Origin: Nostoc sp. PCC 7107
GTDB lineage: Bacteria > Cyanobacteriota > Cyanobacteriia > Cyanobacteriales > Nostocaceae
DNA: 64,000 bases
Reading direction: 5' to 3'
Assembly: GCF_000316625.1 (NCBI RefSeq)
Contig: NC_019676.1
Span: 4,420,501 to 4,484,500, forward strand
Shown here: one piece after another, positions 28,274 through 34,045 of the stretch
How positions within the stretch are numbered: position 1 is the stretch's first letter
Layout: each line of letters starts with the position of its first letter
Notes under the pieces: model-generated
Told to the model about the DNA's origin: nothing
Databases searched by the model: none
The model's input: only the letters and a program-made list of their open reading frames with translations
Translations under genes and position numbers: made by a program

Positions 28274-28785
28274 AACAAAAAGTAAAATTTAGCGGCAAGA
28301 TTGTAGTGATTTACACTTAAAAACCTGTATAATACAACGTTAAGTATCATCTAACACGCAAACTTAGTTAATGCCCCTTTAAGGATTTGTGAGTCAGTAT
28401 ATATGTGTAAATACCCGTTGAAAACGTATACAGAACGGATAGTTCAGGTATCAGAATCAATTATTAGAAACTTTCAACACCACTGAATCATCGTTCTAAC
28501 TCCAGTCAATGATCAATTATGGTGGCTGACTCTTCTAGGCTGTTTTGATCAATTTGATTTTGCCGATTTTTGAATGAGCATTTTGTAACCGATACGATAC
28601 AAAAATAGGAATTACACAACAAGATGCTTCGCTTTGTAGGGGATGAGGATTTGAAACCTTAACTACCCAAACTTTTGATGTCTTGTTTGAAGATTTCATT
28701 CCCGCAGAAATGAGATTAACTCTGGTGTTGCAGCGAATTTTGGTATCAACTTGAACTTGCTAGTCATCCCAATAATTTTTTACAC
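28274..28785. promoter_or_regulatory. Long upstream region of the NOS gene
   Basis: 512 bp without a gene. It contains TATAAT at 28328-28333 (no good -35 at 16-18 bp) and an inverted repeat TTTTGTA-N10-TACAAAA at 28581-28604 with GATACGATAC in the spacer, about 180 bp before the ATG. That could be an operator. I saw no exact GTA-N8-TAC NtcA site. No ribosome binding site is evident at ATG 28786. Confidence 0.35.
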
Positions 28786-31700
28786 ATGGATTACGATCAA
28801 CAACTGATTAATTTAACAGAAATCTCAGCTACAGATGTTCCATCTGGAGGAGATTTTAAATATAAATGTCGTGTACAGATACTTTCTGAGCAAGGACAAT
28901 CTGTTTTATCCAAGGATCTGTTTTCGCGGATGCAGCCCAGCTGGTTGTTGAATTTAACTAACTACAAAGACTGCGCGATCACCATTACACTGTGTTATCG
29001 CCAAGGCGATATGACGCAACCTTGGCAAGATGCCGGGACAGTTACCTTTGCGGCGCAAGATTTTCTGCATGGTCACAACTCAATTGAACTAGAATTTCCC
29101 ATCACCACCTGGAGTCTGGCACCCTACTTAACCCTGAAAACACGGATCACCCAGACTATTGGTGAAGCAAATAGCAGCACCGTCAACTTATTAGCCAATC
29201 AGCAAAGCCATACGCGTGTTCAACTGAAACCAACCTCAACAACCGACAAAGAAGTAGAAATTCCCGCAGCTATTCCCCTGACAGCCAATGAAGAAGTCAT
29301 CGTCAAGGATGTCTGGAATAAGCTACGGGCTTGGAAAGAACTGCAAATGGAAAAGTTCTTTAAACGGCTGTTGCTAGAAGAACCAGAACTAGAACATATC
29401 TTTGGTGAAGCGATCGACAGCATAACAGATTACTTTTATGAGTTATTTGATTACTGTATTCACCAACTCCAGCCCCACACCCAAAACATTATTTCTGAAC
29501 CTCTCACAGGTGTGCCTTACGAAAAAGGCGATGACTTCGATACAGTAGAAGACTACGGGGCTTTGTTTGCGGATATTGGGATGCGTCCCCACCACTGGGT
29601 AAAAGCGCGACAAGTGTGGATGTGGATGTTACCCTCGATTCCTTATCTGGAAGAATACGATCGCCAAGATTTAGCTAAAGGTGTTAATTCTGCGCTTTAC
29701 AAGTTTTTCAATACCCATATCATTGTCCCAATGGTAGAAGCAGTCCGTTGTTATGAAGACGCTTTACCACAAGAATTACTCCAGGAGATGACAGACACTT
29801 GGCAGATATTTAGCCAAAACAAGCAAGAAATGGGGATGGTATTTTATCAGACCTTATTTGAAAAATATCCCTTTGTGTTGCCGATTTTTGGCAGGGCAGA
29901 TATTGATTACCTATCTTTGCACCTGTTTCAATCATTGGATTTTCTCATGCGTTGCTTGAAAAGCGAAACCACTGATGAACTGTTGCTGGAACTGCGATTA
30001 TTAGGACAAATTCACGGCAATGTGGGAGTACCATCTTGTGCATACCCTGCCATTTCGGACACCATGTTTGTCTTATTTGAAAAGTATGTGCCGAATTTTA
30101 CCCCAGAATTACGGCGGGCATGGCAGACATTGTTTAATCGCGTCACCAATGTGATGAAGTTGCCTAAGCTGAATGAAGAAAGGTTATTAAAAAAAGCCAA
30201 GCAATTTCTCGAAGTGATTGCGACTGAACAAGGTTGGGAACCAGAACATCAAAAACTACGTTGGGCAGAAATTCAAGCAGAAGTTCAAGCCACAGGTGCT
30301 TACAGTCATACCTACGAAGAACTCGCCTATGGCGCACAGTTAGCTTGGCGGAATGCTTCCAAATGTATTGGTCGGATTCAGTGGAATAATATGGTGGTGC
30401 GTGATTGCCGTCATGTTACCGACCCTGATGAAATGTTCAAAGAATTAGTCGAACATTTGCGTTTAGGGACAAATGGCGGCAATATTCAAGTGATCATGAC
30501 CGCATTTCGTCCCAAACAACCGAAAGAACGTTGGGGGCCTCGCCTGTGGAATCCCCAATTACTGCGTTACGCCGCCTACGAACAACCAGATGGCAGTGTG
30601 ATAGGCGATCGCGCTAACTTAGATTTAACTAAAGCAGTGATCAAACTAGGTTGGCAACCACCATCACCCCGCACCCCTTACGATATTTTACCGATAGTGA
30701 TTGAAGTGCCGGGAATGGAGCCAAAGCTTTATGAATTCCCCCAAGACGAAATTTTAGAAATAGACATTGAACATCCCAGCATTAGCGAATTCAAATCTTT
30801 AGGGTTGCGCTGGTATGCCATCCCTGCCATCAGTAATTTCCGTATGGATATTGGTGGCATTACTTACGCTTGCGTCCCCTTTAATGGCTGGTACATGGGT
30901 ACAGAAATCATGCGTGATTTCATGGAAGAAGGACGTTACGACAAACTCGAAGACATCGCCAAAGTACTGCAATTAGATATTAGTTCCGAGCAGACCTTGT
31001 GGCGCGATCGCGTCGCCTTAGAATTGAATATTGCTGTCCTGTACTCCTTCCAAAAAGCGAAGGTAACAATGGTAGATCATCAATCTGCCTCGCGCCAGTA
31101 CCTCGCCCACGATTTGCGCGAAAAGAAAGCAGGTAGAGAGTGTCCGGCGGAATGGGGTTGGGTGATGCCACCAGCCGGCGGTAGCGCTTGTCCGGTTTGG
31201 CATCATCAAACACGGGACTTTTATTTAGAACCAGCCTATCACCATGCAGCCGATCGCTGGGCAGTAGAAGATGGGATTGACCTGGAAAAAATCACGACTT
31301 TTGCTTCTGAAGACGACAATAAGCAAGACCGCATTTTGATTTTATATGCCTCAGAAACTGGCACAGCCGAAGGTTTTGCCCGGACTGTAGCACGGCAATT
31401 AAATCGTTATCGTCCCAAGGTGATGGAACTGGATGAGTACAACCCCGACCTTTTAGCTTCGGAGAAACTACTACTAATTGTCACCTCCACCTTTGGTAAT
31501 GGGGAAATGCCAGGGAACGGCAAAAAATTCTTGCATTGGTTGAAAAAGCAACCGCCTGGTTCCCTGATGAGTTTAAATTATTCTGTGTTGGGGCTGGGTA
31601 GTACCGTATACGAACACTTCTGTGCGGCAGGAATTGCGGTTGATAAAGCCTTAGCTCGCTCAGGGGCAAACTCTATCGCTCCCTTACATAAAGCTGACGA

Positions 31701-33231
31701 AATCAAAGGACAAGCCGACACCTTTAAACAGTGGGTGAGATTAATTAGTCGTGTTTTAGGTGAAGATGCCACAGCCGCCGATGGGACTACGGCTCATGCG
31801 CCTCAATTGCAGGTGAAAGTGTTGAATGTCGCCGAAGTTCTCAATCTTTCTTGTATTATCGGCAGTGGCGATCGCGGTATAGCCGTTCCTGTAGTTGCAA
31901 ATCAAGAATTGCTGCAAGAAGTAATTCCCGGTAGCCGTTCCACCCGATTTATCAGCTTCGATATTGCTAATACCAACCTGACGTATGAAACAGGCGATCA
32001 TGTGGCAGTGTATCCTTGCAACTCATCAGCATTGGTGCAGCGAATTTGCGATCGCCTGAATGTCACTCAAGACACCTACTTCAGTGCTAGTTACGTTACC
32101 GCTGATGGTCAGGAAACCGAAGACAAACCCCCAGTTGCCGTACCTACAACTGTCGGTCATGTGCTACATGAAGAGCTAGATTTAGCCTTGCGGGAACCAT
32201 TCAATGATTTATTGGCATATTTACACTCCGCCACATCAAACCTCACAGAAAAACAACGCCTAGAAACTTGGTTAGAAATTCTCCGCCAAGGTGAAGACCA
32301 TCCCGACAGCATCGCGCTCACCAAAAATATCACCGACAATTACATGAGCGTGGCTGACTTATTCGATGAATTCCCCGCCGCCAAAATTACCCTCGCCGCC
32401 TTACTAGAGTTACTCCCCAGACAGAAACCCCGTCTGTACTCCATTTCCTCCTGTCCCTTGCTACATCCCCAAGAAATTCAAATCACAGTGGGGGTATTGC
32501 AAATTACCACCGATGCAGGCAAAGTCCGTCAAGGGCTGTGTTCCAACTACCTAGCTGGATTGGAAGTAGGCACAACAGTAAGAATTGACGTTCGTACCTC
32601 CACCTTCCGTCCACCCAGTGATCCAGAAGCAATGATGTTGATGGTAGGCCCAGGTACTGGGGTTTCACCGTTAATTGGCTTCTTGCAATACCGACAAGCC
32701 CTGTGGCAACAAGGACAACCCTTAGCAGACGCAGCTTTATTCTTTGGTTGTCGTAATCACCAGGACTTCCTCTATCAAGAGCAATTGCAGACATGGTACA
32801 ACCAGGGCGTGCTATCAGAATTAAACGTGGCTTTTTCTCGCCAAGGCGGAGAAAAAGTCTACGTTCAACATTTGATGCAGCGCAAACCCCAAGAAATCTG
32901 GCAACTGTTGAGTCATCCAAAATGCCACTATTATGTTTGTGGTGATGCCAAAATGGCCGATGATGTTTATGAAGTCATGTTAGCGATCGCCAATACTGAA
33001 GGTGGTTTATCACACCTAGAAGCTGTCCAGTTCTTTGACAAAATGAAACAGGAAAAACGCTTCACTGCCGATGTTTGGGGAATCACACTCAACTACAAAC
33101 AAGCCATCAAACAAGTGCAGAAAGATAACTACTCAAAAGCCCAAAGATGGCTGGATCGTGTTAATCAATCGGCAGATGATCAGGCACAAGTTCCAGAGGT
33201 AGCAACACCATCCATTGCCTATAATATTTGA
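28786..33231 (+). CDS. Globin-containing nitric oxide synthase with fused reductase
   Basis: A 1481-residue multidomain enzyme. (1) Residues about 1-160: beta-rich domain of unknown family. (2) About 166-320: globin-like domain in which Phe192 and Phe261 fall where haem globins have Tyr-B10 and proximal His. (3) About 328-465: globin with Tyr354 (B10) and His410 (QIHGNVGV). (4) About 475-835: NOS oxygenase with haem-thiolate Cys527 (SKCIGRIQW) and arginine-binding Glu707 (GWYMGTEI). (5) From 849: FMN domain ([10 protein letters not shown]). (6) FAD/NADPH reductase with RLYS at 1216-1219, GPGTG at 1288-1292 and [11 protein letters not shown] near the end. NOS converts L-arginine, O2 and NADPH to citrulline and NO; the Tyr-B10 globin could oxidise NO to nitrate. 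No calmodulin helix is seen in the short oxygenase-FMN linker. The known relative is the NOS of Synechococcus sp. PCC 7335. Confidence 0.95.
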
Positions 33232-33275: not shown

Positions 33276-33314
33276 AGATCCCCGATTTCTTTGAGAAATC
33301 GGGGATCTTTTATT
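33276..33314 (+). terminator. Rho-independent terminator after NOS
   Basis: A perfect 15-bp stem (AGATCCCCGATTTCT and complement) with a TTG loop, then TTTATT, 45 bp after the NOS stop. It probably separates NOS from the permease gene. Confidence 0.85.
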
Positions 33315-33472: not shown

Positions 33473-34045
33473 ATGGAACAAACTATATTTTTAGATTTTT
33501 TAGCCAGCCTACAAAAACTGTTCGTAGGTTACATTCCGGCTGCTGTTTTCGGTAGCTTTATTGGATATTTCATTGGCATAAATGTTACAGTGTATCAGAT
33601 TTTTAGAAGAATATTTCAGATACCCAATAGCATTCCACCTTTAGCCCTACTCCCAATTGCTCTTGTCTTATTTCAAGATAGTGAACCTGCTGCGGTAACG
33701 GTGATATTTATTGCCACTCTCTGGACAATTATCATTAATGTGGCAATAGGTTTACAACATTTTCGTAGGCAAAATAATAACTTTCGGGCTGCTATATTTC
33801 ATGTATTTCATGCCCTGAAAGTTGGCATTTGGGTAGCGTGGTTTACAGTTATTGCCATAGAAATGTTAATTGGCCCTAGAGGCTTAGGCTTTCTTCTCTG
33901 GGAAGCCTACAAAGCTGGTAATACTAATAACATCATTCAGTTTTTACTCTACATTGGTATTATCGGCACTTTGTTGGATCAATTTTTAGATTTTATGGGG
34001 TCTCTATTGGCACAGATGATTTCTGAGAGTAAAAAATCTACTTAA
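33473..34045 (+). CDS. Orphan NrtB-like ABC permease lacking the coupling loop
   Basis: A 190-residue integral membrane protein with about five helices. Segments SIPPLALLPIALVLFQDSEPAAV, TLWTIIINVAIGL and VIAIEMLIGPRGLGFLLWEAY match the NrtB/SsuC/TauC group of nitrate, sulfonate and taurine importers. Typical members have about 270 residues. Between NVAIGLQ and WVAWF some 25 residues are missing, which is where the EAA loop that grips the ATPase should be. No ATPase or binding-protein gene is nearby. It may be a pseudogenised or repurposed permease. It follows NOS on the same strand by 241 bp, with a terminator between. Confidence 0.65.
   Translation: MEQTIFLDFLASLQKLFVGYIPAAVFGSFIGYFIGINVTVYQIFRRIFQIPNSIPPLALLPIALVLFQDSEPAAVTVIFIATLWTIIINVAIGLQHFRRQNNNFRAAIFHVFHALKVGIWVAWFTVIAIEMLIGPRGLGFLLWEAYKAGNTNNIIQFLLYIGIIGTLLDQFLDFMGSLLAQMISESKKST

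Follow-up and report, generated by a model that had tools for sequence, protein, structure and literature searches.

A syNOS-type nitric oxide synthase in Nostoc sp. PCC 7107 and the apparent exchange of globin modules among its cyanobacterial relatives

Introduction

Can one bacterial polypeptide carry arginine all the way to nitrate, and what would set the balance between releasing and oxidizing the nitric oxide (NO) made on the way? The question is raised by an uninterrupted open reading frame (ATG to stop) of 1481 residues in Nostoc sp. PCC 7107, lying in a stretch of 64,000 nucleotides (the window, numbered here from its first base). The original prediction, made from the letters of this DNA, proposed that a nitric oxide synthase (NOS) and an NO dioxygenase are joined in a single polypeptide, draw on a common reductase and yield nitrate. 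The reference point is syNOS of Synechococcus PCC 7335, which turns arginine into NO and nitrate (PMC6104048, 2018) at an NO:NO3- ratio of about 1:3 in vitro (PMC7554344, citing Picciano and Crane 2019), and for which a 2026 cryo-EM study (PMC12922734) describes a C2 domain, a pseudoglobin without haem, a haem globin that is the NO dioxygenase, an oxygenase, a flavodoxin and an FNR. Within that literature, Ca2+-dependent formation of NO and nitrate from arginine is published for syNOS only, and PMC6104048 names Nostoc PCC 7107 among the NOS-bearing cyanobacteria.

An ortholog of syNOS

The original prediction named the PCC 7335 enzyme as the nearest known type. Two syNOS sequences head the phmmer list against PDB sequences, the match running without a break to syNOS residues 17-1466; behind them comes 8t1j ('Nitric oxide synthase 1') at 586 bits. 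Over syNOS residues of about 17-972, 631 of 952 aligned residues are identical (66.3%), and syNOS (PDB 9Q05, 9Q06, 9Q0X, 9Q0Y, 9Q15) shares with the window NOS all six domains and their order: C2, a pseudoglobin without haem, the haem globin, oxygenase, flavodoxin and FNR (Table 1). A five-part protein had been predicted; a multidomain NOS with globin and reductase is indeed there, but the parts number six, the C2 domain and the pseudoglobin having been overlooked, and in the alignment to syNOS the globin then placed at about residues 328-465 is the haem globin, with the pseudoglobin as the stretch before it. The Pfam Globin match (E 9.5e-6; 26.5 bits, where the cut-off is 22) is modest when taken alone, and the globin assignment holds because the match to syNOS carries it.

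Table 1. Coordinates and basis of the features discussed; positions are those of the window unless a locus is named.
Feature	Position	Strand	Basis
Whole syNOS-type NOS gene, intact, 1481 aa	28786..33231	+	ORF; one-stretch match to 9q05/9q15 (residues 7-1457, 2235 bits)
C2-like domain, about residues 1-125	28786..29160	+	37.3% identity to syNOS C2 (1-134); domain as described in PMC12922734
Pseudoglobin (without haem in syNOS), about residues 167-327	29284..29766	+	72.7% identity to syNOS 179-339; PMC12922734
Predicted haem globin (presumed NO dioxygenase), about residues 328-461	29767..30168	+	Pfam Globin 353-457; 61.9% identical to the syNOS globin
NOS oxygenase domain, about residues 462-840	30169..31305	+	Pfam NO_synthase 464-825 (4.2e-152); 77.8% identity to syNOS
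FMN flavodoxin domain, about residues 851-991	31336..31758	+	Pfam Flavodoxin_1 852-983; 70.6% identity to syNOS (part)
FAD/NADPH reductase (FNR) and C-terminal tail, about residues 1004-1459	31795..33162	+	Pfam FAD_binding_1 1033-1255, NAD_binding_1 1286-1394; boundary approximate, mapped from syNOS 1017-1468
Tyr354, taken to be globin B10	29845..29847	+	Tyr in 32/37 rows; aligns with syNOS Tyr366
His410, proximal His F8	30013..30015	+	His in 32/37 rows; aligns with syNOS His422
Cys527, haem thiolate	30364..30366	+	37/37 rows; aligns with syNOS Cys539
Glu707, presumed arginine-binding Glu	30904..30906	+	37/37 rows; aligns with syNOS Glu720
Terminator-like hairpin, 15 pairs and T-rich tail, 45 bases past NOS stop	33276..33308	+	Consensus scan; 2 sites found against 5.2 expected in shuffles, weak by count
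EF-hand globin NOS	L028:8001-12623; L043:8001-12623; L040:139-3870; L032:2821-7443; L046:5522-10168		Pfam and alignment (see text)
LCIB-type beta carbonic anhydrase (PF18599) fused C-terminally to syNOS-type NOS	L039:7974-13148; L098:516-5714; L103:562-5739		Pfam (see text)

The four residues singled out by the original prediction lie where it put them, and each matches its syNOS counterpart by alignment: Cys527 and His410 as haem ligands, Tyr354 at the presumed B10 position of the globin, and Glu707, which by NOS biochemistry presumably binds arginine. Trp702 and Tyr703, like Cys527 and Glu707, are unchanged in 37 of 37 aligned NOS rows, Phe368 aligns with syNOS Phe380 (CD1), and the basic patch of C2 is kept (K25, K27 and R72 for syNOS K35, K37 and R81). 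The full FMN/FAD/NADPH reductase that had been proposed was likewise found by Pfam. The protein therefore has what marks a syNOS-type (globin) NOS, namely an oxygenase with thiolate Cys and substrate Glu, a fused Fld-FNR reductase, a predicted F8-His globin N-terminal to the oxygenase, and C2 and pseudoglobin at the N-terminus. In syNOS it is Cys539 that is the haem thiolate (PMC6104048). The differences from syNOS lie in a C2 domain and an L1 linker of low identity (37.3% and 24.4%), a C-terminus about 20 residues longer, and Asn98 in place of Arg107, a replacement shared with six close relatives in the 37-row alignment. Because Arg107 forms the published salt bridge of C2 to the oxygenase in syNOS (Arg107-Glu568; PMC12922734), regulation by Ca2+ and C2 may differ in the window NOS. 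Against three close relatives, dN/dS ranges over 0.38-0.63 in L1 but stays at 0.035-0.116 in each of the folded domains, and the low values point to purifying selection across all of these.

Other known systems share some of these parts. The flavohaemoglobin Hmp is a globin with B10 Tyr and F8 His that is reduced by an FNR. The window NOS resembles it in just these features (some of them described for Hmp in PMC12922734), whereas Hmp has neither NOS oxygenase nor flavodoxin, the FNR of the window NOS begins more than 500 residues past the globin, and the FNR of syNOS would need to rotate and move for Hmp-like access to the globin (PMC12922734). Classification as Hmp was rejected because oxygenase and flavodoxin separate the globin from the FAD/NAD domains; the window NOS works in part like Hmp, yet is no Hmp. 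Sorangium-type NOS, which carries a BFD-like [2Fe-2S] domain, is self-sufficient, as is the window NOS. Its reductase, however, is N-terminal (PMC6104048), and this order of N-terminal reductase with BFD-like [2Fe-2S] domain, found in the loci L050-L052, is absent from the window NOS, so that assignment to the Sorangium type was rejected on domain order by Pfam. Metazoan NOS likewise runs from oxygenase through flavodoxin to FNR, but syNOS, according to PMC6104048 and PMC12922734, has no calmodulin-binding segment, and has N-terminal C2, pseudoglobin and globin instead.

It is very probable, then, that the window NOS is an ortholog of syNOS that would turn arginine into NO or nitrate in one chain, with a Ca2+-sensitive C2 domain tipping the balance. 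Electrons from NADPH would pass through FAD and FMN and on to the partner subunit, whose NOS haem would oxidize arginine to citrulline and NO; by the alternative route the FNR would reduce the globin haem, held by His410, which with O2 would oxidize NO to nitrate; and the C2 domain would travel between oxygenase and globin, setting NO release against nitrate formation. The parts and residues are seen directly in the protein, while the chemistry is taken wholly from its ortholog, and the presence of both haem ligands, the catalytic residues and the C2 basic patch supports this syNOS-type mechanism. The central proposal of one-chain NOS and NO dioxygenase with a common reductase and nitrate as product is thus supported by homology to an enzyme for which these features are published (PMC6104048, PMC7554344). 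Its further claim that the two activities are internally coupled is right in placing both in one chain and too simple beyond that, because the published work on syNOS favors counter-regulation: with Ca2+, C2 leaves the oxygenase and travels some 85 A to the haem pocket of the globin, and the authors read NO synthesis and NO oxidation as counter-regulated via Ca2+ and C2 (PMC12922734). A tightly coupled relay, in which the oxygenase hands NO to the globin within one turnover state, could draw on the two haems in one chain, on the NO:NO3- ratio given above, and on rates of syNOS globin reduction that change little upon removal of C2 or addition of Ca2+, an observation that also weakens the notion of a clean C2 switch; but during turnover with Ca2+ and arginine C2 sits across the haem pocket of the syNOS globin and closes it, and Ca2+ modestly reduces NO dioxygenase activity (all PMC12922734), and I regard the relay as unlikely. 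The window NOS is, by its sequence, a routine ortholog of syNOS and already known, in the sense that the mechanism from arginine through NO to nitrate is in print for syNOS, not in the sense that the gene has been listed.

Genomic context

Does the surrounding genome tell us what the product is for? The assembly is one contig of 6,329,823 bases with a single PF02898 match, and the NOS globin is its only PF00042 match, with controls working, so no separate flavohaemoglobin was found by that search, which covers globins other than the truncated ones. The PTPS family has three matches in two frames. As for the supply of BH4, no sepiapterin reductase scored over the cut-off, here or in the control genomes. 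The one Molybdop_Fe4S4 match lies in a frame of 744 residues which, judged by its size, may be the nitrate reductase NarB, and nitrate from the NOS could for that reason be assimilated.

The neighbors of the NOS gene are not conserved beyond its closest relatives. Among ORFs of at least 100 residues in the flanks, just three clusters recur in at least four loci (PhzF-like proteins in six, mixed ABC ATPases in six, aminopeptidase P in five), and the ABC ATPases were rejected as one operon, their distances being scattered. Downstream of the NOS gene, at 33473-34045, stands a lone ABC permease-like ORF of 190 residues, with no ATPase or binding protein beside it by Pfam in the adjoining ORFs scanned; this BPD_transp_1 permease occurs in 3 of 30 NOS loci, and a transporter for nitrate or arginine linked to the NOS gene was discarded as an idea. 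The NtcA-like motif GTA-N8-TAC occurs 20 times in the window against 11.0 expected (1 of 100 shuffles reaches 20), and is absent from the leader at 28274-28785, which separates the NOS start from the gene before it; promoter and terminator scans gave sites no more numerous than in shuffles, and the hairpin past the NOS stop is a possible terminator. With neighbors not conserved and a leader without an NtcA-like site, no genomic context links the gene to nitrogen metabolism, which favors a reading of the window NOS as mainly an NO source for signaling, with nitrate a by-product limiting NO damage rather than a product for nitrogen assimilation. Against this stands the growth of syNOS-carrying E. 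coli on arginine as sole nitrogen source, with build-up of nitrate (PMC6104048), and the signaling role is a plausible reading that I would place somewhat short of an even chance.

A possibly exchangeable globin in the family

That reductase-fused NOS is a rarity among bacteria, as had been suggested, fits the cyanobacterial sample, in which PF02898 matched 16 of 386 genomes at E 0.001; 12 genomes had a match over the cut-off, and some of these matches are fragments or belong to other NOS architectures. In two loci (L051:1497-5162 and L052:1498-5142) an EF-hand pair, a BFD-like [2Fe-2S] domain and an FAD/NAD reductase precede a C-terminal oxygenase, and this is a second cyanobacterial NOS type with EF-hands; in L050:1858-5124, two N-terminal cyclic-nucleotide-binding domains are followed by a BFD-like [2Fe-2S] domain, a reductase and a C-terminal oxygenase; and in Chroococcus sp. 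FPU101 (L044:8001-12398) the NOS is encoded as two ORFs of 826 and 616 residues, with the break between oxygenase and flavodoxin. Residues were counted over 37 distinct NOS rows (the window, a syNOS fragment and 35 loci), among them L040, whose N-terminus is missing, and the shortened frames L096, L105 and L042, which appear as gaps. Left out were 4 of 30 loci that are split or fragmentary (L044, L045, L047, L049), exact duplicates (L055, L087, L088), distant or fragmentary NOS matches (L002-L005, L009-L019) and repeat copies (L089-L094, L099, L101, L102, L104; L094 is the split L044); L106 and two further syNOS-type genomes, G647 and G662, also lie outside the 37.

F8 His and B10 Tyr are both retained in 32 of these rows, and the exceptions (L028, L043, L040, L032 and L046) are exactly the five that carry an insertion of 62-63 residues adjoining F8, with Val (three) or Asn (two) at F8 and Phe at B10. 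Pfam assigns the insertion of each of the five to an EF-hand pair (EF-hand_7, 3e-12 to 1e-10), and by eye both loops fit the familiar EF-hand pattern in four of them, the first loop of L046 being weaker. Pfam Globin was rejected as a test of haem binding, as rows with F8 His score near or below its cut-off of 22 bits (L039 20.0, L098 22.1, L103 not listed); a missing match in the EF-hand rows proves nothing, since rows with the His miss it too, and the His was counted instead. The five rows without proximal His but with EF-hands, in which the catalytic residues of the NOS are still invariant, might suggest that the globin gates the oxygenase as a sensor of haem or of O2/NO and is not a working NO dioxygenase, as might the slow reduction of the syNOS globin (0.22-0.25 per second) and the docking of C2 on its haem pocket (PMC12922734). 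The syNOS globin is, however, published as oxidizing NO to nitrate (PMC12922734, PMC7554344), the window NOS retains Tyr354, Phe368 and His410, and a purely sensory globin appears quite improbable. In the EF-hand form, by contrast with that haem form, the NO dioxygenase is apparently disabled.

How did this form come to sit in different NOS lineages? In the globin tree all five EF-hand rows join with support 100/100, whereas L032 and L046 group with the haem-globin rows L024 and L056 in the oxygenase-flavodoxin tree (100/96) and in the C2-pseudoglobin tree (100/98; without L040, in which the part is missing), the other EF-hand rows falling elsewhere in both. Neither backbone tolerates a tree that keeps the EF-hand rows together (rejected with AU p 1.5e-5 and 0.002), and the clade of L032, L046, L024 and L056 was rejected in the globin tree, the EF-hand group having been named before the trees and the four-row group after; the EF-hand rows sit on a long branch (0.71) in the globin tree, against which the tree tests guard only partly. 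Counted against all rows, the EF-hand label changes 2 and 3 times on the backbones and once on the globin tree. Along residues 160-639, L032 is closer to L028 than to L024 at about 300-440 and otherwise closer to L024, save in the last window, 600-639, where L028 leads by a hair (82 against 80%). At synonymous sites L028 and L032 differ by a distance of 0.45 in the globin but of 1.07-1.45 in their other domains, a pattern that an exchange of more recent date would leave. From trees and synonymous distances, a globin cassette was apparently exchanged between NOS lineages, with no direction implied.

Is the exchanged form a working one? In the EF-hand pairs the globin has the highest dN/dS of all domains (0.235, 0.438 and 0.357), as it also has in the haem pair L024/L056 (0.30), while other haem pairs give 0.03-0.07 and the EF-hand insert by itself gives 0.18-0.37. 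The EF-hand globin is under constraint, perhaps only a weak one, and decay of an unneeded domain could also produce such ratios. In an order-level search, 82 of 387 genomes were tallied, 24 of them with a long match to a C2-pseudoglobin-globin-EF query; in 4 of the 24 (G352, G519, G617, G647) the EF-hand part was matched as well, and the other 58 gave short stretches only, mostly of the EF-hand part, with some globin-like matches and a few NOS remnants.

A second elaboration is found at the other end of the chain, where an LCIB_C_CA domain follows the FNR tail in three genomes (L039 1.4e-65, L098 5e-67, L103 4.1e-66). L039, a chain of 1724 residues, is from Planktothrix paucivesiculata, with L102 on the same contig, and the LCIB part gave dN/dS of 0.11-0.20 in a separate alignment. 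Since L034 and L105, neighbors of these three in the trees, are without the domain, it was lost or cut off in them, or was gained more than once. The genome of the window gave no LCIB carbonic anhydrase match in a search in which no positive control responded either.

Discussion

The literature searched showed neither an EF-hand globin NOS nor an LCIB fusion, and in the available text of two of the syNOS papers the terms 'EF-hand' and 'carbonic' (PMC12922734) and 'EF-hand' and 'carbonic anhydrase' (PMC7554344) do not occur; that search did not extend to most papers behind subscription, among them a review from 2025, cited in PMC12922734, on the diversity of NOS in cyanobacteria, and the novelty of both variants is for this reason unproven. 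With the window NOS, an enzyme whose structure and activity are already published gains a further ortholog, and it is the exchange of cassettes at the level of the family that is worth following. The survey may matter for its syNOS-type NOS in which an EF-hand form apparently takes the place of the NO dioxygenase, and for the LCIB fusions. The globin slot could be an exchangeable regulatory cassette, holding either a haem NO dioxygenase, as in the window NOS and syNOS, or, in cyanobacteria of Microcoleus/Plectonema type, a form without haem ligand and with a calmodulin-like EF-hand pair inserted at the F helix, which would make a Ca2+-switched, NO-releasing NOS; moved between NOS backbones by recombination, it would be a convergent, intramolecular answer to the calmodulin control of animal NOS. 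This proposal seems to me evenly poised between right and wrong. The EF-hand variant would be a natural counterpart of an H410 replacement in the haem form, and comparing the two globin forms bears on NO output, on control by Ca2+, and on the flow of nitrogen from arginine to nitrate.
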